Virus record (IMG/VR): IMGVR_UViG_3300007640_000091 | Coordinates: 1 to 37,327 of that record | Source of the DNA: a virus | Length of the DNA stretch: 37,327 bases | Direction: 5' to 3' (one strand) | Notes under the pieces: model-generated | Databases searched by the model: none | The model's input: only the letters and a program-made list of their open reading frames with translations | Told to the model about the DNA's origin: nothing | Position numbers and translations under genes: made by a program | Part shown: positions 11,002-32,420 of the stretch, piece by piece | Position numbering within the stretch: the stretch's first letter is position 1 | Layout: each line of letters begins with the position of its first letter

Positions 11002-14000
11002 TGGCTGACATTGCCCCTAATAGGCAGAATTTTTACGCTGAACGCCGGCTTACGGATCAAGCGATCATTAATCGCTCCCGTGAACTGGATAAAGCTATGG
11101 GTGAATCCCAAGAAAGGTTCTCTCCTAATAGGAGCGTAGACCCTATCTCTCTTATGAGTGCCTTATTCGACACTGAGTACTGGAAACAGGACGTATGGCC
11201 CCGTATTGTGGACTATGCCGGGGCAGTATCGGACAAAGAGTTCTGGACAGAGGATGTAGCCCGCAATGTTAAGCCTGCTTTGAAGAAAACAGGCAAGGCT
11301 TACGTCTCTGGCATAGCGGGTGCTCCTGTAGACCTTACTGTAATAGCAGCACACACCTTTTGGTGGGTGACTGACAACTTAGGGCTCAGTAATGGGGGTG
11401 ACTATAGTTGGTTAGAGGGTATGCCGGACTTCAAGAAGATCCCAGTCAGCTCTGACTGGATAATGAAGAACGTGTTTGAAGAGGAACCCGAGGGTCTTGA
11501 GTGGATTGCTGGTTCGTTGTTGCAACCACCCGCAAACTTTACGGCTAAAGCCGCTATCTTCATTGGTGCCAAGACAGGATTCCCTAAGTACGTAGCCTCA
11601 CTGGGCAACGATACCCAACAAGTAAGGAACGCCCACAAGAACTACAACGATGCTCAGTATGCTGCTGAACTAGTGAAGAGGGGCGAGATGACCCACTCTG
11701 AGATGATCGCTGAAACGGGCTGGAGTCTCACCCCTAACGATGAGCTTCAGATGTTCGTTGATTCTAGCGAGGCTTCCTTCAACTGGTTTGCCATTGACGA
11801 TGCTCTGATAGAAGGTGCTAACACAGCAACGGAGAACCACACCATAGTTTCCATGAGGACAGGAGATATATGGGATCACCCCGAACTTAGGAAAATCTAT
11901 GGTGAGGAGTACGGTGATTTCAACACCACGTTCTCGCTAGAGAAGATACCCGATGGTAAAGATATCATGGGTAACGGTGGCTACAGAGTACAGGACAAGG
12001 ACGGTAACTGGTGGCAGGTATCCACTAACGGGGCAGAGCCGGGTACTGGTGGGGCAGTGATGAGGAGTCAGCCCCAGTGGGAGAAGAGTACGGCTGAGGT
12101 ACGTGGGTGGCCCAGTAGGGACTACCCCGGACAAAGACCCATGTCTCAGCAAGCTATGCGAGATAAACTGGAACAGGTCATGATACACGAGTACCGTCAC
12201 GGTTTCTCGGCAAACAACCAGTGGGTTGGTGGTGGAAGCTCCCGCTATTACGAGCAACTAATTCAGCAGTCTGTCAATGGGTACCTCTCCAGTGCCATAC
12301 CTCTGCTAGTAGAGCAGTACGCACGGGAGGGTGTGGATGTTGTGGGTTCTACACAGTTCTTTGACATCTTAAAGGGCCAGTTCCGTAATGTAGACGAGGA
12401 TCTCCTGAGGTCCTATATCCGAAACGGTGCTACAATGGCTAGGGGTGAGGTTGACGGTGCTATGTCTGTATCCCATAGGGCTAGGAGAGATCGGTATGAA
12501 GCCGATGTACAGAATATCATCAATATGGTGGCTGGCTCTGAGAGAGGTAAGGAAGCTGTTGATATCTTTGCTCGGAAGATCGACAACCAAGTGATCTACG
12601 ATATGTCAAGGAACATATACGGTAGGTTGGGTGACGAGCAAGCCGCTAGGATGCAAGAATACTTGTGGATGATGCGTGAAAAGAATCCAGAGAAACGTAT
12701 GGAGATGGCTAGGGCGTACGCTAATGAGGTAGCGTGGACTTATGAGGACCTACCACCGTACATTGAGAGACTCTTTGGCCCCGACTATGACCCGACTGCT
12801 CCCGTTAGGGGTCTGAATCAGGTACAGGATGCCGATGGTCGCTTTAGAGTTGCTACCGAGGGTAACAAGTGGGAGTCCTACATGAAGGGTGAGCCGGAAC
12901 GTGCACCGTGGGACGAGGCGGATAAGATGAACGTAGAGGTAGAGGACGGTATAACCGTACTAGGGGACTTTAAGGAAGCCCCACGTTCTGATCCGCTCCA
13001 GCCTGAAGGCCCGGTATTTGACCGTGGCCGGGATACCCAGCGTACCCTGAGTACCCGTGGGGGTACGGAAGGTGGACTTATGGACTCATCCTTTGAGGAG
13101 CGTGTCAATCCCGGTGGTCTACCCGAGGGTACACAGCAGGTAGGTACCCCAGAGGAGTTGTTCCCAGCGCAGCCTAAGCCCACGGTAGAGGTACCGGGGC
13201 AGGATCACTACTCTAACTACGAGGGTATCCTTACTGAGGAGATGGCGATAGACGAGCTTCTCAATAAGAGACCGGGTAACGGAGCTGTGCGTGAAGCAGC
13301 CAACAAGCTGCTGCACGGTGAGCCTATGAAGTACAAGTCTGACGAGTGGCTGATGAACAAGGCCAGTGAGCTGGGCATCGAGGCTAAGAAGCTATCGGAT
13401 AAGGAACTCAAGCTCAAGATCAAGCGAGAGAATTACCTTAAAAAAAAACAAACACCTAACCCACAGAGTGAAGAACCACCCAAGAAGGACTACTTAGCAG
13501 AGGCGAGAGCAGCACTGAAGAAGGAAGATCCAGACCTTCCGGATGATGAGATAGAGCCTATGGCTATAGCTGACGCTGCTGTCAATAGAGCAAGGGACAA
13601 AGCTTTGGCTACTCCTAAAGGTGAGATAGAGTTGGAGTGGATCAACTGGGGTGGAGATAACGCTAAGATGAAAGCTCTGAAGAACCCCGACGAAGCTATG
13701 CTTCGCAGGTGGGCAGGGCGAGACATAGAGGAAGTACGTTGGGTAAGGACACCAGACGGAGACTTGGTTGTATGGGATGCTGAGAAAGGTATGCACGAGC
13801 CAGTGATGGAAGCGTTAGGCTACAGTGCATGGGATATGCTGGATGATGGAGCTGACAGAGGTGCAGGCTATAAGTTAGACAAAGCTATCGAGAAGCTCTT
13901 TGGTAAGAAGGCACGTAGACAACCAGCGAACCGCCCTGAGTCTCAAGTACCTACTACTAGGAAGAGAATCAGTACTCTTAAGGATGAGTACATACATGGT

Positions 14001-15379: not shown

Positions 15380-15639
15380 AATTAGACTTCAACATAGCAA
15401 GTATATGGGCAGCTCTAGTAACCACAGGTACGGCTATGTTGTGGTTATTTACCAACATCGCTTGGGCTGCTGACATTGATAGAATCGAGATCCGTCTTAT
15501 TAAGCAAGAGATCAGGGAGATCCGGCGGGACTTACAGGATACGGATGACGATACTGTACGGGCCTACTTAGAGGCCGAACTTAATGAACTAATCGACGTA
15601 CTATGTACGATGAAACCAGAAGATAGGGAATGTAACTAA
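15376..15639 (+). CDS. Small membrane protein with charged helical tail
   Basis: About 87 residues from the GTG at 15376, whose GTGA overlaps the previous stop and has GGAG about 10 nt upstream; a GTG at 15352 is an alternative giving 95 residues. Residues ~8-28 are hydrophobic (ASIWAALVTTGTAMLWLF) and end in an AWA motif that could be a signal-peptidase site, so it is either a membrane anchor or a secreted helix. The remainder is a charged coiled coil (IRLIKQEIREIRRDLQD) with two Cys near the end. Lysis or envelope function is a guess from context. Confidence 0.65.
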   Translation: MKLDFNIASIWAALVTTGTAMLWLFTNIAWAADIDRIEIRLIKQEIREIRRDLQDTDDDTVRAYLEAELNELIDVLCTMKPEDRECN

Positions 15640-16733
15640 TGGCTAAGCTATCACTCACCGACTTAGTATCGGGGTACGCTGCTGCTGCCGCATACAACGC
15701 TAACAATACGTTGATCGAAGCAGCACTAGAGAATACTCTGTCTAGGGATGGTACCTCTCCTAACACGATGAGTGCCAACTTGGACATGAATTCCAACAAG
15801 ATCACCAACCTTACGGATGGTACTAATAATCAGGACGCAGTTACCTACGCTCAGCTAGCAGCCGCTAGCCTTGCCAGCATAGCGAGCGTGGATGATCTCT
15901 CTGATGTCACTATCACCAGTGCTGCTAGTGGTGACGTTCTGTACTACAACGGTAGTGCTTGGGTAGACAGTGCTCTGAGTACTATTGTTACTGAAGCTAT
16001 TGTAGAGGGAGCCTTGACAGGCATCACAGCCTTTACGGTAGGGAACTACGTGTTCAACGTAGACCAGACCGTAGGTGCTGGGCAGGACAACTACGTACTG
16101 ACGTACGACCACGGTACTGGTGAGATAGGACTGGAAGCTGCTGCTGGTGGTGGTGGACTATCTAACGTAGTAGAGGACGTTACTCCTCAGCTTGGTGGCA
16201 ACCTTGATCTCAATAGCCAGACAATCAACGGTACGGGTACCATTGGTATCACTGGTGCTATCACAGCAACCAGCTACGGTGGTATCACAGAAGCTAATCT
16301 AGTTGATAAGAGTGCTGCCGAGACTGTCTCTGGTCTATGGACCATGAGTGGTGGCATCAACATGGCTGATGCTACCCTTGACAGACCTAAGCTGGAGGAC
16401 TACGGTATCACCTCTACCTCCCCGTCCTCTAGTTCTGGGGCTATCACGCTTGACCTGTCCGCCGGTAACTCGTTCCAGACTACCCTAACTGAGAACATCA
16501 CTAGTATTACACTATCTAACCCACCGGCCTCTGGTACTTACGGTGAGTGTATCTGGAAGATCACGCAGGGTGCCAGTGCGTACACTGTAACCTTCCCGGC
16601 TGCTGTATTGTGGCCTGATGGGGGTACAGCCCCGACCATCTCCACTACTAACGGAGACGTAGACATCGTAGTCATGCGTACATGGGACGCTGGTACTACG
16701 TGGTACGGTGATGTCGGACAGGACTACGCATAA
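15639..16733 (+). CDS. Tail fibre or tail appendage protein
   Basis: A 364-residue protein with low-complexity Thr/Ser/Gly/Asn beta-structure. The N-terminus contains a fibre-type repeat segment (MSANLDMNSNKITNLTDGT), the 'keep-track-of-nodes' motif common in phage fibres, followed by repeated 'SGDVLYYNGSAWVDS' and 'PQLGGNLDLNSQTINGTG' modules. The C-terminus is a compact beta region ending in GTTWYGDVGQDYA. It begins at a TAATGG overlap with the preceding gene and ends with an overlap to a second small beta-rich protein. It probably forms the host-contact fibre. Confidence 0.8.
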   Translation: MAKLSLTDLVSGYAAAAAYNANNTLIEAALENTLSRDGTSPNTMSANLDMNSNKITNLTDGTNNQDAVTYAQLAAASLASIASVDDLSDVTITSAASGDVLYYNGSAWVDSALSTIVTEAIVEGALTGITAFTVGNYVFNVDQTVGAGQDNYVLTYDHGTGEIGLEAAAGGGGLSNVVEDVTPQLGGNLDLNSQTINGTGTIGITGAITATSYGGITEANLVDKSAAETVSGLWTMSGGINMADATLDRPKLEDYGITSTSPSSSSGAITLDLSAGNSFQTTLTENITSITLSNPPASGTYGECIWKITQGASAYTVTFPAAVLWPDGGTAPTISTTNGDVDIVVMRTWDAGTTWYGDVGQDYA

Positions 16734-17403: not shown

Positions 17404-17626
17404 GCAATGGTACCAGTCAAAGACTATGGTGTTCAACCTAGTGTCAGCATTGATAATGATGACGCAGGGTTTAGCTACACTGTTCGCTGGACTTGGCGCA
17501 GTCCTTCCCGAGACTGCTATAATCTGGGTAGTGTTCGGTATCAATATTATAAACATGGGACTGAGAGCAGTCACCAATAGTGGAATAGTGAGTAAGCCTA
17601 ATGCTATGGCTAAACCTGAAAGCTAA
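17384..17626 (+). CDS. Holin-like two-span membrane protein
   Basis: I choose the GTG at 17384 because GGAGGT lies 7 nt upstream; upstream in-frame codons are shadow of the previous gene. The 80-residue product begins MDQRTSKQWYQSKTMVFNLV, the 'W-Y-x-S-K-T' opening common in small phage holin-like proteins, then has two hydrophobic segments at ~17-38 and ~46-62 and a short Lys-containing tail. Two helices, small size and location immediately before the Rz-type spanin make a class II-like holin the best guess. Confidence 0.7.
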   Translation: MDQRTSKQWYQSKTMVFNLVSALIMMTQGLATLFAGLGAVLPETAIIWVVFGINIINMGLRAVTNSGIVSKPNAMAKPES

Positions 17627-17945
17627 GTTAGCTTTAGCCGGGGCTGCTATCATAGCAGTCCTCGGTTTCTTTCTTAGGATGTCAATGTTAAAGAACCAGA
17701 ATGAGAGGTTGAAAGTCAAGGCTGATACCTTACAAGCTCAGGTTCATCAAGCCAAGACAATCAAGAAAGAAGAGAAGAAGATCCAAGAGGAGTTCCGCTC
17801 TAGGGAGACGGACCTCCTCAATGAGTTAGAAGAACATTCAAAGATTAAAGAAAAGCTAGACAAGGAAGAAGATCCTGTCAAGAAAGAGGAGATCAAGCAT
17901 GAGTTTCAGGGTATTGACAACTTGTCTAATCCTAACGATTGGTAG
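17601..17945 (+). CDS. Inner-membrane spanin (Rz-like)
   Basis: A 114-residue protein with an N-terminal membrane anchor (residues ~7-26, LKAKLALAGAAIIAVLGFFL) and a long periplasmic coiled coil rich in Lys/Glu (residues ~30-100). This is the standard i-spanin layout. The next gene, a Pro-rich lipoprotein, starts inside it in another frame, as in the lambda Rz/Rz1 pair. Together they would fuse inner and outer membranes at the end of lysis in a Gram-negative host. Confidence 0.8.
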   Translation: MLWLNLKAKLALAGAAIIAVLGFFLRMSMLKNQNERLKVKADTLQAQVHQAKTIKKEEKKIQEEFRSRETDLLNELEEHSKIKEKLDKEEDPVKKEEIKHEFQGIDNLSNPNDW

Positions 17946-18150
17946 TGGGTGTGCTCATGCACCCCCTCCAGAACCACCCCTTTGTTTACCAGAGCGTCCC
18001 GTTCTGTTAGAGGTTACACCGGATGAGCAACTCCAAGTCCCAACCAACGTCCTCCGCAAGTTCGCCATCAACGACCTATCCCTTAAGCTCTACGCCAGAG
18101 AGCTTGAGTCTAGGATCAACGTACACGACGAACCCTTGGACTCATGCTAG
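17899..18150 (+). CDS. Outer-membrane spanin lipoprotein (Rz1-like)
   Basis: An 83-residue protein overlapping the Rz-like gene by 47 bp in a different frame. It has a lipoprotein-type signal (hydrophobic residues ~5-14, then G-S-G-C18) and a Pro-rich segment right after the cysteine (APPPEPPLCLPERP), both hallmarks of o-spanins. The lipobox is slightly atypical at -3. The i-spanin/o-spanin overlap is diagnostic of this gene pair and indicates a Gram-negative host. Confidence 0.8.
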   Translation: MSFRVLTTCLILTIGSGCAHAPPPEPPLCLPERPVLLEVTPDEQLQVPTNVLRKFAINDLSLKLYARELESRINVHDEPLDSC

Positions 18151-22503: not shown

Positions 22504-22909
22504 TGAACAGTTCGTCCACAAACCACACAGCTTTGTGTACGTCCTTATCATGCTGACCTTTGAAGTTAGCACGTAGCAGGTACTTCAAGGAACTACCCTT
22601 AAGGTAGCCTCGGTATTCCTCGGGTGTCAGCTTAGCTCTGATCACATCAATAGCCTCGATACCACCAGCAGTGTAGTGGTCAGGGCTGTCGATGTCATTG
22701 GTAGCATACGGGTAGTCCGTGGCTGCCAGCCCATTGACATTACTACGTAGCTGCTCAAGCACTGGATCTATCTCACGCTCATAGATCTCCTGATCTGTCA
22801 GGGAATCCAACGGGCTGTCCTGTTCCATCAAGTTAACATACATTTGAAAGTACTCCTCTTCCATATGCTGAAGTTCTTCAGCTTCAGTGGTGTCACGCAT
22901 CTCAGGCAT
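22484..22909 (-). CDS. DUF3310-domain protein
   Basis: A 141-residue protein. The C-terminal ~65 residues match the DUF3310 pattern: DSPDHYTAGGIEAIDVI, then KGSSLKYLLRANFKG and KDVHKAVWFVDEL. The family is widespread in phages near replication genes and has been called nucleotide kinase-like without firm evidence. The N-terminal half is acidic (EAEELQHMEEEYFQMYVNL). GAGG lies 9 nt before the start, which overlaps the exonuclease gene; the end overlaps the resolvase gene by 20 bp. Confidence 0.8.
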   Translation of the reverse strand: MPEMRDTTEAEELQHMEEEYFQMYVNLMEQDSPLDSLTDQEIYEREIDPVLEQLRSNVNGLAATDYPYATNDIDSPDHYTAGGIEAIDVIRAKLTPEEYRGYLKGSSLKYLLRANFKGQHDKDVHKAVWFVDELFNVTPEA

Positions 22910-23804
22910 TAGGTGTTACCTCCGGTACCTTAGGTTCTCGTTTAACATCGGTAAGATAGGCTGGTCCGTTACCATACAGGAATGTACGCAGTCCCTTACC
23001 ACCATTGCTGTCCTTCCAACAGTGCTCCCTGAAGTCGCAGTAGCTACACTTGGTGTTGAGTTTCATGTTACCTGACTTACCATCAGGTACATCTGCTATC
23101 CTGAAGTCAGTCGGCTTCGGTTTCTCTATTGTCTTTACTAGAGTCTCTACCTTAGTAGCTACCTCCTCATCACTCCACAGCTTAGAGCTTACGTTGTCGT
23201 ACAGTATGTGTCCGTTCTGCTTATCAATCCACACGAACCCTGTCTTGTCCTTATCAAAGAGGTACGGACCTTTGTAGTGGTGGTGATAGAATGACAACTG
23301 CCACAGGTACCCGAAGGTATCGTTACTGTGGTTGAGCCCTTCAGTAGCGTACTTCTTGTACCCATACGATGACGTTGACTTAACATCTATCAGTGCATCA
23401 TCAATGATAGCGTCGATCCTACCTGACACCATCCAATCTGTATTGGGTACGTCCCACTCTACCCTGTCCTGAGTACCACACACAATGTGACCTGCTTCTT
23501 CTGCAAGATAGAGCGTTGCTTCCTCAAGTAGGTTACCGTACAGAAACTTGAACTTAGTGTGTCCCATGAGGGGGAGCATCTCACCAGTAGCGTGGAACTT
23601 ATACCACGCCTTCCTTAGACAAGTCTCACCTAGATCACTAGCCCACAGCTTGCCCATCTCCCGCTCTTGCGAGCGGGGACGGGTAGCCTTGGCTAACTCA
23701 CCACCTATATTCATAGCGTAGTGAGCAGCCTTAACTTCATTAGGCTCATGATCTTCCGAAGCATCTAGCACATGGTAGATGTCCTTCTCTAGATCCTCAA
23801 TCAT
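22902..23804 (-). CDS. PD-(D/E)XK exonuclease, Cas4/RecB-like with Fe-S cysteines
   Basis: A 300-residue nuclease. Catalytic core: D131 in SGRIDAI, D140 and K142 in LIDVKST, followed by Q169 in LWQLSFY. Four cysteines sit where Cas4/AddB-type enzymes bind a 4Fe-4S cluster: C62 (ETCLRKAWY) and C253, C256, C262 (KCSYCDFREHC). It is probably the phage 5'-3' exonuclease for recombination or host DNA breakdown, replacing T7 gp6. A perfect 7-bp hairpin with a GCAA loop lies inside the gene at 23660-23677. There is no CRISPR array, so a CRISPR role is not supported. The start overlaps the upstream stop (TAATG). Confidence 0.87.
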   Translation of the reverse strand: MIEDLEKDIYHVLDASEDHEPNEVKAAHYAMNIGGELAKATRPRSQEREMGKLWASDLGETCLRKAWYKFHATGEMLPLMGHTKFKFLYGNLLEEATLYLAEEAGHIVCGTQDRVEWDVPNTDWMVSGRIDAIIDDALIDVKSTSSYGYKKYATEGLNHSNDTFGYLWQLSFYHHHYKGPYLFDKDKTGFVWIDKQNGHILYDNVSSKLWSDEEVATKVETLVKTIEKPKPTDFRIADVPDGKSGNMKLNTKCSYCDFREHCWKDSNGGKGLRTFLYGNGPAYLTDVKREPKVPEVTPNA

Positions 23805-24286
23805 TAGAACTCCACTGCGAAGTTAATGTTACCAAGGTAGTTACCACCAGCCTGTGACAACTTGAACGTGACGAACGATACTTCGTCCAGCCTACGGGCA
23901 TAGCCGAAGCCAAAGCCCGTGGTGCTGCTTACCCTGCTGAACCCGAAGGTCAGTCGGTTGTCCATGTTATCAGGGAGGTACGGATTGACAGCCGTGCTTG
24001 CTGCCGTGTACTCAATCATCTCCCGGTACCAACGGTAGCTTACAACCCCGTCCTTACCAGCCGGACCAGCAGGCCCCATTGGACCAGCCGGACCCGGAGG
24101 TCCCTGCTCACCGGGCTCACCCTGTGGCCCCGGCTCACCTTGATTACCCGGTGCAGGTGGTGTCAGGATAGAGTCTAGACACTCATAGGTTACAAAGTTG
24201 GGGTGAGTGCAAGGCTCATCGGCGTACACCTGAGCCATACACATCATACCAAGCAAGACCAAAACAAATGCAATAGTTGTTTTCAT
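23804..24286 (-). CDS. Secreted collagen-like protein with C-terminal beta-barrel-anchor-like end
   Basis: 160 residues from the ATG at 24286. Residues 1-22 form a signal peptide ([20 protein letters not shown] then YA-D). Two Cys follow (C26, C36). Residues 47-80 are eleven uninterrupted Gly-X-Y collagen triplets. The last ~50 residues read as four alternating beta-strands ([43 protein letters not shown]) and end in Phe, as Gram-negative outer-membrane proteins do. The layout resembles a miniature trimeric autotransporter (YadA-type) with a collagen stalk. It lies inside the replication operon, so it is probably made early in the host and not as a virion fibre. The barrel is inference. Confidence 0.75.
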
Positions 24287-24346
24287 ATTAACATACTCCA
24301 GTATGGTGCTGTCATTAGTAAGAAATACCCGATGATGAGTAACCAA

Positions 24347-24865
24347 TCACTCTTGGTCGTCAGCTTCATTAGCAGTCTGAGCTGCCAACTGTTTAGCCAG
24401 CTCCTTATCAAGGGTACCCATTGCAAAGCCAGCCAAGTTATAGGCTGCCTTGATTACTTCGTTATAGTACTCCTCCCGAGTATCGAAGTCAGCCTCTGCG
24501 GCATAGTTACACGCATTAGCTACCATCGTGTTGGCATTGGTCAGTGCGTTCTGCCTGATGATCGAGTGATCCTTAGAGTTGGGATCAACCGGAAACATCT
24601 TGGTAGAACTAGCCTGCCGAGCTGGTGCTGGTTTACGTGCTGGTGCAGCACTGTTAGTACCACCAGTCTTACGACCACCAAAGGTACGGGGTACTTGCAG
24701 TCCCCACTTGGTGGACTCCACTTCCAGTTCTACATACTCACCCTCCGAGTGGTTGCACTGGAACCCAAGGTTAATCTCCTGCCCATCAATGTGGGCTGTG
24801 TATACAGTACCACCATTGGATACAGTCTTGCTCGTGATGCTATCAATTACGCCTGCTACTTTCAT
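24347..24865 (-). CDS. Putative single-stranded DNA-binding protein
   Basis: A 172-residue protein. Residues 1-60 look like a small OB-fold (MKVAGVIDSITSKTVSNGG; YTAHIDGQEINLGF), followed by a Gly/Ala/Pro/Arg linker (residues ~60-87), a helical domain containing DHSIIRQNALTNANTMV, and an acidic tail (EADDQE) of the kind used by SSBs to contact partner proteins. It is adjacent to the DNA polymerase gene. Assignment is by architecture and context. Confidence 0.6.
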   Translation of the reverse strand: MKVAGVIDSITSKTVSNGGTVYTAHIDGQEINLGFQCNHSEGEYVELEVESTKWGLQVPRTFGGRKTGGTNSAAPARKPAPARQASSTKMFPVDPNSKDHSIIRQNALTNANTMVANACNYAAEADFDTREEYYNEVIKAAYNLAGFAMGTLDKELAKQLAAQTANEADDQE

Positions 24866-29109: not shown

Positions 29110-29437
29110 TATCGTCCCCCTGTGTGTGTATTAGACCATCATTATCCGATAAAGTTCCATCTAAATTTCCTAATGAATTCAATACCATAAGGACACTGAT
29201 CATCTTCTCAGTCTCCAGTGCATTGAGTCCAGCAGTATACATCCTGCTACCCCAGTGAACTAAAGAATAGAAAACCAGTGTCAGTATCCCATTGACCCAA
29301 GCATAGCTTTCTATATTCTCAGGGTACAGGGCGATCAACAGTACGTTGAAGGTAAGCAGGGCGTACCCTATTGCAGCCGTGACCCCTGCCAGTGGTGGTG
29401 TCCATTTCCTACGGACGATCTCATGCTTAGCTTCCAT
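29090..29437 (-). CDS. Two-span membrane protein
   Basis: About 115 residues from the ATG at 29437 (AAGGAG ~9 nt upstream, overlapping the VWA gene end by 11 bp). Two hydrophobic helices at residues ~18-40 (VTAAIGYALLTFNVLLIAL) and ~50-70 (WVNGILTLVFYSLVHWG) follow a basic N-terminus, and the soluble C-terminal ~45 residues are acidic. The layout is loosely like three-helix holins, but it sits in the early operon, so a membrane function in takeover or superinfection control is equally possible. Confidence 0.6.
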   Translation of the reverse strand: MEAKHEIVRRKWTPPLAGVTAAIGYALLTFNVLLIALYPENIESYAWVNGILTLVFYSLVHWGSRMYTAGLNALETEKMISVLMVLNSLGNLDGTLSDNDGLIHTQGDDNEHGSS

Positions 29438-31301
29438 TATATTTAACTCCTTGTGCCAGTACACTTAACAGTGCATCGTTGATTTCTTCAGCGTGTTGGA
29501 TAACCGAACGCTTAGTGTAGTACATCTCAACAGCATTGGATTGGATACCAATACCATACAGATCAATCTTACCTTCCTCCTCAATCTGCCTAGTTGCAGC
29601 CAGTAGTGCTGAGTGGTAGTCACCATTGTAACTACCAGCCGGGGCACCATCGCTCAGTACCAGCAGGATCTTACGTGGTTCCTTACGCCTCATCAGTTCA
29701 CGGTATGCCCACAGTACAGAGTCGGCATCGTTGTTACCACCGTGCCACTGACAGTAGGTAGCGAAGCATTGGGCCTGATCCCTAGTAGACATACGCCTAC
29801 CGAAGGGCTTAACAACTCCGATATCACAGTGTGTATTGTAAGCCGTGAACGCCGAGATCATAACCGGCATCTTAAGCTGGCGTTCAAACACATCACCTGC
29901 TCGGATAGCAGCCTGTGCTGCTAGCTCAGCCTTCCTACCACCCATGCTACCACTCCAATCCACTAGGATATGGATGGCAGTATTGATAGCTTGCTTACGT
30001 TGAAGATCGTAGAACACTCGACGGTTCCAGTTACCACCATCAACAGGTGGCATCAGCAGCCTAGCTATATCCTGATTGTTAATGCTCCCTGACTCACGGT
30101 CATTACGGATACGAGCACGGGTGTGTGACTGTACATACCGACGCACTCGGTTACCCAGTGCTGCTCCCTTATTAGCACAGGGTTCGAAGTGTTTAGCTGC
30201 TCGGCCCCTTCGCTTATAACGGTACTCATGATCCGGCAATTCATAGCCCTTAACATACAGGGGTTGAACAGCGATCTCATTGTGTGGTGAAAATGCTACA
30301 CCCTTCTGATCTTCGGGCTTACCTTCAAAGGTAATGCCAGCCGGACCACCGTTACCGTGGTTCTGTTTACCGTCGTCATGTTGTGACCAGAGTACATCCT
30401 TCCAGTTAATGACGTAGCCTTCACCCTCTTCAGCTTCGGCTTCTTCAGTACCAGATCCGTCGGCATCACCTTCACCTCCATCATCACCTTCGGTAGCACT
30501 ACTACCTTGACCCTTGCCTTTACCCTTACCTTGAGGCGGAGTCGGCGGGCTAAACTGTGGCTTATCAGGATACAGTCGGTCGAACAGGTCTAATGACAGG
30601 GCCCACACATCATCGACAGTAACACAAGCACGTAACCTATCAACGTACCCTTCCTTAACTAGAGCGGTGGTAAGATCCATGCCCTCCTCTGGCATACACT
30701 TAAGCCAGTTGTCATATGCTTGGCGAGACCAGCCATCCCAATCTCTACGTGACATCATCTGAATAGCCATGCAGATCATAGGTTTCAAGGACTCCTCATC
30801 AAACACGATGCCCTTAGCTCGTGCCTCCTGTACTTGCTCACGCCAGTACATCTCACCATCCTTACACATGATGGCGTTACCCTCACCCAGTACCTTGGCA
30901 TCACCGAGGCTAAGGCTAGCAACGTACCGTTCCATGCAATCATCCTCAAGGATATTAAAGATAGCTTGCAACTCAGGGCATGGCTGCTCCCTAATAGAGA
31001 TGTCGAATACCTCGGGCCGAAGCAAGTGACCGCACTCATGCACTACGTACATATAGGTACGGATCAGTTGCTCTTTAGTTATGGGTGACTGGATAGCCGG
31101 GAGCTTGATAATAAAATCATAAGCACTACCGGGTACGCAGTTGCTAGTAACAGCGGTGTCAATGCTATTAGACCACACTACCTGTACCCTATGACGTTCG
31201 CACCTGCGACGGATAACTTCTTGCACTCTATCTACTTCAAGGATAGATGCAGTGGTGTCATCAAACCCTAGCTGCTCGTACTCTTTGCGACCGTATCTCA
31301 T
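29427..31301 (-). CDS. CobT-like VWA-domain protein with HExxH motif
   Basis: A 624-residue protein. Residues 88-92 are HECGH in a metallopeptidase-like context (VVHECGHLL), with an EDDCMER segment downstream. Residues ~260-300 are a low-complexity linker (Gly/Lys, then Glu/Asp/Gly), as in CobT. The C-terminal VWA domain has a MIDAS motif D448-W-S450-G-S452 and LVLSDGAPAG. It is adjacent to a CobS-like AAA+ ATPase, the usual AAA+/VWA pairing. CobS and CobT form the chaperone part of aerobic cobaltochelatase, but no CobN is visible, so a chaperone-like role on another target is possible. Confidence 0.8.
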   Translation of the reverse strand: MRYGRKEYEQLGFDDTTASILEVDRVQEVIRRRCERHRVQVVWSNSIDTAVTSNCVPGSAYDFIIKLPAIQSPITKEQLIRTYMYVVHECGHLLRPEVFDISIREQPCPELQAIFNILEDDCMERYVASLSLGDAKVLGEGNAIMCKDGEMYWREQVQEARAKGIVFDEESLKPMICMAIQMMSRRDWDGWSRQAYDNWLKCMPEEGMDLTTALVKEGYVDRLRACVTVDDVWALSLDLFDRLYPDKPQFSPPTPPQGKGKGKGQGSSATEGDDGGEGDADGSGTEEAEAEEGEGYVINWKDVLWSQHDDGKQNHGNGGPAGITFEGKPEDQKGVAFSPHNEIAVQPLYVKGYELPDHEYRYKRRGRAAKHFEPCANKGAALGNRVRRYVQSHTRARIRNDRESGSINNQDIARLLMPPVDGGNWNRRVFYDLQRKQAINTAIHILVDWSGSMGGRKAELAAQAAIRAGDVFERQLKMPVMISAFTAYNTHCDIGVVKPFGRRMSTRDQAQCFATYCQWHGGNNDADSVLWAYRELMRRKEPRKILLVLSDGAPAGSYNGDYHSALLAATRQIEEEGKIDLYGIGIQSNAVEMYYTKRSVIQHAEEINDALLSVLAQGVKYNGS

Positions 31302-31310
31302 TGGTTACTC

Positions 31311-32420
31311 CTATTTAATTGCCGATGCAAACACTTGCATATACATTTCCTTAACGATAGCCTTGTCGTTATTGGATAGCTTGTCGAACCAGCATACCTT
31401 GAGTGCTGTAGCCATGTCACCATACATGGATATCTTATCAGCCCAGTTGAGCAGGGCTCGGACACTGAACGTAGACATAAGCTCGTCCTTCTTAAACGCT
31501 AAGCGTACTGCCTTGGCAAAGTCCAGCATACTATTAACCTGATCCTCGTTAAGATCCGGGGCATACTTGTTAAGGATCTTACGTTCCTCTGTCTTACCAA
31601 GGTAGTCCATCTCGATCACCGTATCAATACGGTCCAGTGTACTGACATCCTGCACCTCAGCTTGGAAGGTACCCGTCTCATCACCCAGACCTACGGTGTT
31701 GTCTGTCATTACGTAGTGCCACTTACCAATAGGTGCCAGCATCTTACGCTCATCAGCACTCATGCCTACTGCATTAGGCAGCAGCAAGAAGCGGCTCGAC
31801 TTCTCACGTAGAGACTGTAGTACCAGTGCACTGCTATGACGGAACGCCTCATCCTCAATGAAGATACCACCATATCGCAGGCTATCGGTCAGTGCCGTAG
31901 GTTCTTGCCTGATATGTGGGTTGCCATCCTCATCATAGATGATGCCCATGTTACCAGTGAAGTGTGCCTCCCTAGTCTCAGCGTTGCAGTTCATACGCCA
32001 GCATGGGTACCTGAATGTAGCAGCCCATTGCTTGGCAAGGTCTGACTTACCAGTACCTTGCAGTCCGAACAGCAGGGTGGTGTCGTTAGTAGACAGGGCA
32101 GCAGCGAACTTCTCGGTAGCTTCACGAGGCCAGATCCAGTTCTCATTAGGATCAGGTATCATACACCGTGCCTCTTCCGGCCAGTCCTCATCAGTGAACA
32201 CAGCTACCGGCAGGTTCTCCGGTACCAGTGTCGGCTTCCAATTGAACAGCTCACCGAATGTCTTGTAAGTAACACCCTCTTGTGCTACGTACTCACGTTC
32301 CTTAACATCGGACAACTTGGCTAGCTTATCAGCTACCTCGTCTACCTTATTAGCTGCGTCACCTTCCTGTACCATACGACGGATAACATCGGGGTCATAC
32401 ATACCTTTCATTGCTGCCAT
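31311..32420 (-). CDS. CobS/MoxR-like AAA+ ATPase
   Basis: A 369-residue ATPase. Walker A is GLQGTGKS (119-126, K125), Walker B IFIEDEA (D190, E191), with an Arg-rich segment and C-terminal helical lid following. The N-terminal ~95 residues include a CobS-like small domain (YKTFGELFNWKP). The gene ends 10 nt before the VWA partner; its start is a TAATGG overlap with the small gene upstream. MoxR/CobS ATPases remodel protein targets together with VWA partners. The name 'porphyrin/cobalt chelatase subunit' is customary for phage homologues but not demonstrated by sequence alone. Confidence 0.87.
   Translation of the reverse strand: MAAMKGMYDPDVIRRMVQEGDAANKVDEVADKLAKLSDVKEREYVAQEGVTYKTFGELFNWKPTLVPENLPVAVFTDEDWPEEARCMIPDPNENWIWPREATEKFAAALSTNDTTLLFGLQGTGKSDLAKQWAATFRYPCWRMNCNAETREAHFTGNMGIIYDEDGNPHIRQEPTALTDSLRYGGIFIEDEAFRHSSALVLQSLREKSSRFLLLPNAVGMSADERKMLAPIGKWHYVMTDNTVGLGDETGTFQAEVQDVSTLDRIDTVIEMDYLGKTEERKILNKYAPDLNEDQVNSMLDFAKAVRLAFKKDELMSTFSVRALLNWADKISMYGDMATALKVCWFDKLSNNDKAIVKEMYMQVFASAIK

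Follow-up and report, generated by a model that had tools for sequence, protein, structure and literature searches.

Phage genes for proteins that end in a YadA-type anchor have been annotated for years, one example being the 'agglutinating adhesin' of phage phiEco32 (PMC3728262). The yadA homologues of two Salmonella phages do not lie near tail genes (PMC3728262). A marine phage tail fibre with a C-terminal YadA domain has been reported (PMC3909814), so a YadA-bearing phage protein need not be a cell-surface protein. The papers that we found on phage YadA homologues mention them in descriptions of genomes, and we found no functional study among them.

A tblastn search with a standard YadA anchor, encoded by a plasmid of Burkholderia savannae, matched 71 phage records. 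The combination of signal peptide, collagen repeats and anchor occurs in phiEco32 gp119 and in proteins of phages RF1, SP-076 and Munch (22, 17, 41 and 21 Gly-X-Y triplets, respectively), and AAM22, SKML-39, EamP-S6, GAP32 and P59 encode anchor proteins without a collagen run. In phiEco32, the gene for gp119 belongs to the block of leftward genes. Transcription of the early and middle genes of this phage runs opposite to that of the late ones (PMC8948821), and the corresponding block of phage SU10 has been described as early genes (PMC4281155). In RF1 the gene is two after that for DNA polymerase I, and in SP-076, EamP-S6 and AAM22 the YadA-anchor gene adjoins a dUTPase gene. Across the records of the unrelated phages RF1 (PV942687), SP-076 (NC_021782), EamP-S6 (NC_019514), AAM22 (MK798142) and phiEco32 (NC_010324), the YadA-anchor genes lie by DNA polymerase, dUTPase or other early genes and not by tail genes; several of them are annotated as tail protein.

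Here we analysed a stretch of 37,327 nucleotides (the window), which is a whole IMG/VR phage record, and describe in it a gene for a small exported protein with a collagen stalk and a predicted anchor of this type. An initial annotation of the DNA knew of no described system of this kind, a statement that is too strong in view of the shared plan of phiEco32 gp119 and of the RF1, SP-076 and Munch proteins.

A protein with an export signal, encoded among replication genes

The complete gene (23804..24286, minus strand) runs from an ATG at 24286 to a TAA stop codon at 23806-23804 and encodes 160 amino acids in the order signal peptide, tip, collagen stalk and YadA-type anchor, the last as predicted by modelling. 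A GGAG ribosome-binding site, read off the sequence at 24296..24299 (minus strand), lies 9 nt 5' of the ATG. A longer version that starts at a TTG (180 amino acids) gains no support, as the signal peptides of the homologues align from the ATG. A chance open reading frame or artefact is excluded by the conserved homologues, the ribosome-binding site and the overlap with the start of the exonuclease gene.

The left half of the window carries, on the plus strand, genes for tail, internal virion, endolysin, tail fibre and spanin proteins, and the right half carries, on the minus strand, those for ribonucleotide reductase (RNR), exonucleases, endonuclease I, DNA polymerase A, DnaB, primase and a CobS/CobT-like pair. 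The placement of the gene among replication genes, between an exonuclease and an SSB-like gene, agrees with the initial annotation. Directly downstream is a Cas4-type exonuclease gene (22902..23804, minus strand; PHROG 1990, 1.2e-30), the ATG of which overlaps the stop codon by one base. The gene directly upstream (24347..24865, minus strand; 172 amino acids) has no Pfam match and occupies the SSB position, a place beside polymerase and exonuclease that is conserved in relatives of the phage. These relatives keep the order polymerase, SSB-position gene, slot and exonuclease. Their slot may contain no gene at all or small unrelated ones; in L105, the closest relative, it encodes an exported protein of 88 amino acids. 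This phage has no match to the 160-residue gene, which seems to be dispensable or replaceable because a different exported protein fills the slot there; secreted proteins may be the cargo that this slot accommodates. The protein in L105 (6461-6727) is unrelated and contains cysteine.

Two further features of the window are recorded here. The CobT/CobS-like pair (29427-32420; PHROG cobaltochelatase CobT, porphyrin biosynthesis) stands at the start of the replication block. At 17601-18150, an Rz-like i-spanin gene is followed by an overlapping small lipoprotein-like open reading frame (o-spanin-like, GSGC), and this spanin pair points to a Gram-negative host.

A search with Pfam family PF03895 of phages related to the window phage through the exonuclease yielded three homologues of the 160-residue protein (L022:3190-3672, L025:11012-11572 and L024:11060-11596), all with the order tip, collagen and anchor. 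After removal of the collagen part, the window protein still matched the homologues by tblastn (3e-19, 6e-18 and 1e-10, E values that are relative to the candidate stretches), so the homology is independent of low-complexity sequence. All four genes sit on the strand and in the block of the replication genes, directly after the exonuclease in L022 and at the far end of the same block in L024 and L025; in the latter two, as in the window, tail and spanin genes run the opposite way. As its position differs among the four phages, we regard the gene as an accessory one that moves within one block, and this variability argues for an accessory role, not for any particular one. Other searches had little yield. 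The whole protein found only collagen cross-matches in a direct search of IMG/VR and nothing among INPHARED phages; the C-terminal half gave only chance matches, and an IMG/VR scan with this half yielded no true relative; and two scans of bacterial genomes with the family returned no relative.

Two further genes of these phages were inspected by eye. Directly after the homologue in L024, a gene at 11599-12123 encodes a protein that resembles a band-7/SPFH (stomatin-like) membrane protein, which is unusual for a phage. In the replication block of both L024 (9079-9531) and L025 (9035-9487) lies a gene for a small protein that begins with MAKFVITG.PRSRT.WFAAYLT and resembles a sulfotransferase-type P-loop protein.

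Export signal, conserved tip, collagen stalk and predicted anchor

By sequence-based rules, residues 1-22 (24221..24286, minus strand) were assigned as a signal peptide, which has a hydrophobic core and an A-X-A-type site without a lipobox; cleavage is expected after ...QVYA and before DEPC. All three homologues carry a signal peptide as well, in line with the export signal that had been proposed for the window protein. An Llp/Cor-type lipoprotein was considered and rejected, given that LGMMC is not a lipobox and its cysteine is not kept in the homologues.

The tip (residues 23-40; 24167..24220, minus strand) is the most conserved part of the protein and contains an invariant pair of cysteines (C-x9-C) within the consensus PC[TSA]HP[NV]FVT[YH].CL. 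Between the window protein and its homologue in L025, the tip is 83% identical (15/18) and the anchor 36%; the corresponding values for L022 are 56% and 32%. Tip identity is 72-83% when the window protein is compared with L024 and L025, and anchor identity across the homologues is 32-36%. For other proteins of the window phage with a counterpart in the L024 and L025 contigs, identity is 22-55%, in every case below that of the tip shared with L025. In a binomial calculation with p = 0.36, the probability of the 15 identities in 18 is about 5e-5, a figure to be read with the shortness of the tip and the small numbers in mind; chance is thus an unlikely source of the difference between tip and anchor in the comparison with L025. 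The residues HPNFVT and CLDS, between and around the cysteines, are nearly invariant across the window, L024 and L025, and a degenerate DNA pattern of the tip, scanned in IMG/VR, matched only the three homologue contigs. Judged from these comparisons, the tip appears to be the most constrained part, whereas the anchor may need only to insert. The invariant cysteines suggest a closed loop or a staple between chains.

The collagen stalk (residues 47-82; 24041..24148, minus strand) consists of 12 unbroken Gly-X-Y triplets, 11 of which are collagen-like, the last being GVV; the eleven triplets counted by the initial annotation are thus correct in substance. Among 20,000 shuffles of the window protein, the longest such run was 6 triplets. 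The stalk matches the Pfam Collagen family (E = 9e-07; 29.0 bits against a cut-off of 27.2), and the gene is the sole collagen match in the window. Runs of 11, 18 and 19 triplets are present in the homologues, and the stalk resembles a spacer that varies in length.

For the C-terminal part (residues 80-160), AlphaFold2 was run on the monomer with the three homologues in a four-sequence alignment, and two of the five models were confident. The model consists of one helix and four antiparallel strands (pLDDT 88.6). The helix (residues 84-99; 23990..24037, minus strand) would be expected inside a barrel, and the strands (residues 110-119, 122-132, 137-146 and 149-158; 23813..23959, minus strand) precede a C-terminal phenylalanine, as had been anticipated from the sequence. 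An aromatic residue ends the chain in all four proteins (EF in the window protein; EF, EF and EW in the homologues). Folding of the full chain as a single sequence gave a pLDDT of 43.6 and was left unused.

The top five solved structures in a VIA-align comparison are all anchors of trimeric autotransporters (Hia, YadA and AtaA; Z 9.3-10.2), with alignment over 81 of 81 residues for four of them and over 74 of 81 for the fifth; the next chain is a pilin (Z 5.8). Anchor entries of Hia, YadA and AtaA also ranked top in Foldseek, and in a comparison with viral models the best matches were phage proteins with the name YadA-like anchor. No match to the Pfam family YadA_anchor (PF03895) was obtained with the window protein itself, owing, we consider, to its divergence. 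The homologue in L022 scores above the cut-off of that family (24.9 against 22.7 bits) and those in L024 and L025 match below it, so that three of the four members match. Direct comparisons gave weak matches: residues 94-160 of the L022 protein align to the YadA anchor 2lme in phmmer (E 0.23), and a profile–profile comparison of the family with phage YadA anchors reached a probability of 31% (E 5e-4). With the anchor alignment as query, a PDB profile search found nothing and PHROGs contained no family for it. The assignment of the C-terminal domain to the trimeric-autotransporter anchor fold is well supported. Of the YadA-type trimeric anchor put forward initially, it is the fold that has been matched; the homotrimer is inferred from the family, in which three times four strands would give the expected 12-strand barrel.

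Proposed display on the infected cell and possible roles

We propose that the Sec machinery would export the chain, as its signal peptide suggests, and that host BAM would insert three C-terminal domains as a 12-strand barrel with three helices inside, the trimer being that expected of the family. The N-terminal parts would then cross the barrel and assemble as a collagen triple helix of ~10 nm, which would hold three 18-residue tips off the cell. A pair of cysteines in the passenger does not sit easily with export through a narrow barrel. The pair may hold the tip together by a bond inside one chain or across chains. The position among the replication genes suggests that display would precede lysis. 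In a last step, the tip would bind a specific partner and alter what the infected cell can bind. Up to and including display, this model—a miniature trimeric autotransporter (type Vc) made during infection—is probably correct, a degree of confidence that does not extend to the binding step.

What the displayed tip would do is a matter for more tentative reading. Our first guess, which we hold as a possibility and not as the expected outcome, resembles superinfection exclusion: the tip would bind either a phage receptor or the tail of the phage itself and so interfere with secondary adsorption or with DNA entry of further phages, or guard progeny from loss on infected cells and debris. Outer-membrane exclusion proteins of phages are well established (PMC9586334, PMC12685063), and the gene is part of the replication block. 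The exclusion protein Llp is, however, a lipoprotein that acts from the periplasm, and the window protein is predicted to be neither lipoprotein nor periplasmic. We lean slightly towards exclusion because conservation is higher in the tip than in the tail proteins of these phages, which suggests the fixed target that such a function needs. A second guess, somewhat more doubtful, is that of a classical adhesin, through which infected cells would aggregate or attach to one another, to nearby uninfected cells or to surfaces, with the result that released progeny find hosts in the vicinity. Adhesion and autoaggregation are described as typical functions of trimeric autotransporters in two publications (PMC7247746, PMC3498257), the phiEco32 counterpart is annotated as an agglutinating adhesin, and the stalk varies in length among the homologues (11-19 triplets), as a spacer would. 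Yet the tip has only about 18 residues and no known head domain, and the degree to which it is conserved points to a single specific partner more than to stickiness in general.

The cysteines invite two other explanations. The protein might be a structural cap, in which disulphides between chains lock the collagen trimer and the protein shields the cell surface physically; gp119 of phiEco32 and the proteins of SP-076 and S-ESS1 likewise have a cysteine pair before the collagen, in unrelated sequences. We consider this unlikely, as the near-invariance of HPNFVT and CLDS in the window, L024 and L025 exceeds what a staple needs. Still less probable, and purely speculative, is that a disulphide-closed tip stalls in transit and jams BAM, stopping the insertion of new receptors or host porins. 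The location in the replication block, the conserved cysteines in a part that has to be translocated and the dependence of trimeric autotransporters on BamA and BamD (PMC7940764) would fit such an effect; a short C-x9-C loop would probably be tolerated, however, and stalling alone does not need the conserved residues around the cysteines. Collagen repeats are also common in phage tail fibres, as the PHROG matches of the collagen part illustrate, and the marine tail fibre with a YadA domain (PMC3909814) offers a precedent for a virion protein of this composition. Identity as a tail fibre was rejected on account of the signal peptide and the position away from the virion-structure module, and we judge a fibre of the virion, or any other structural component built on a collagen rod, to be highly improbable: the protein has a Sec signal peptide, its gene lies in the replication block on the strand opposite to the tail module, and the phage has a tail fibre of its own at 15639-16733. 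The published proteome of SU10, a relative of phiEco32, names no YadA or adhesin protein (PMC4281155), although SU10 may not encode one.

Relation to described surface proteins

Many YadA-anchor genes in phage genomes bear the label of a tail protein or a virulence gene. Our small survey suggests that the products of several, encoded close to early genes or to genes of nucleotide metabolism, are exported and stand on stalks at the surface of the infected cell; in that case, lytic phages remodel the exterior of the cell as well as its interior. We offer, as a conjecture that may well need revision, that lytic phages of several unrelated groups show their own trimeric autotransporters on the infected cell during replication, and that the family described here is a reduced form, in which a conserved, probably disulphide-closed peptide on a collagen rod meets one particular partner, be it a receptor, the tail of the phage itself or a nearby cell, as a surface device that controls adsorption. 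At 160 amino acids and with a defined tip, this is a very small natural protein of its plan, and could be a practical model for secretion and display.

Several described proteins share parts of this plan. Eib proteins such as EibD, which are prophage-borne trimeric autotransporters, are products of lysogen conversion genes; they have a coiled-coil stalk and are encoded outside a replication block. The EibD structure 2xqh appears under Enterobacteria phage P in an entry of a published listing (PMC7247746). Bacterial trimeric autotransporter adhesins of type Vc (YadA, Hia and AtaA) have the anchor fold, signal peptide and C-terminal aromatic residue in common with the window protein; they carry a coiled-coil stalk and a beta-rich head, in contrast to its collagen and short tip, and are not phage-borne. 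Legionella Lcl and streptococcal Scl use a collagen triple helix as a surface rod and match the collagen part alone: their anchors and C-terminal domains differ, and the window protein scores far under the cut-offs of those families. T5 Llp and Rtp45, which are made by phages and act at the outer membrane of the infected cell, offer a possible working analogy only (PMC9586334, PMC12685063), as Llp has no stalk.

In Synechococcus phage S-ESS1 (KY249644; L149:38662-39168), a protein of 168 amino acids has a signal peptide, a cysteine pair, nine Gly-X-Y triplets and a strand-rich C terminus; its fold matches the anchor weakly, and sequence comparison of its C-terminal part with the family gives no support.

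The closest likeness is to phiEco32 gp119 (YP_001671864.1) and its Kuravirus homologues, which have, like the window protein, a signal peptide, a cysteine pair before the collagen and a YadA-type anchor. Counted from an internal ATG, gp119 has 226 amino acids and 22 triplets, and it includes a coiled-coil-like stretch between collagen and anchor that the window protein lacks; its tip sequence is unrelated, and its anchor is standard and easily detected. Erwinia phage RF1 and Salmonella phages FSL SP-076 and Munch share signal peptide, collagen and YadA anchor with the window protein, but their proteins are larger (320-441 amino acids), with further passenger parts and without its tip. We read the window protein as a diverged, miniature variant of phage-encoded trimeric autotransporters. 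The kind is known from annotation, and the form found here is new in its coiled-coil-free, miniature build and its conserved tip.
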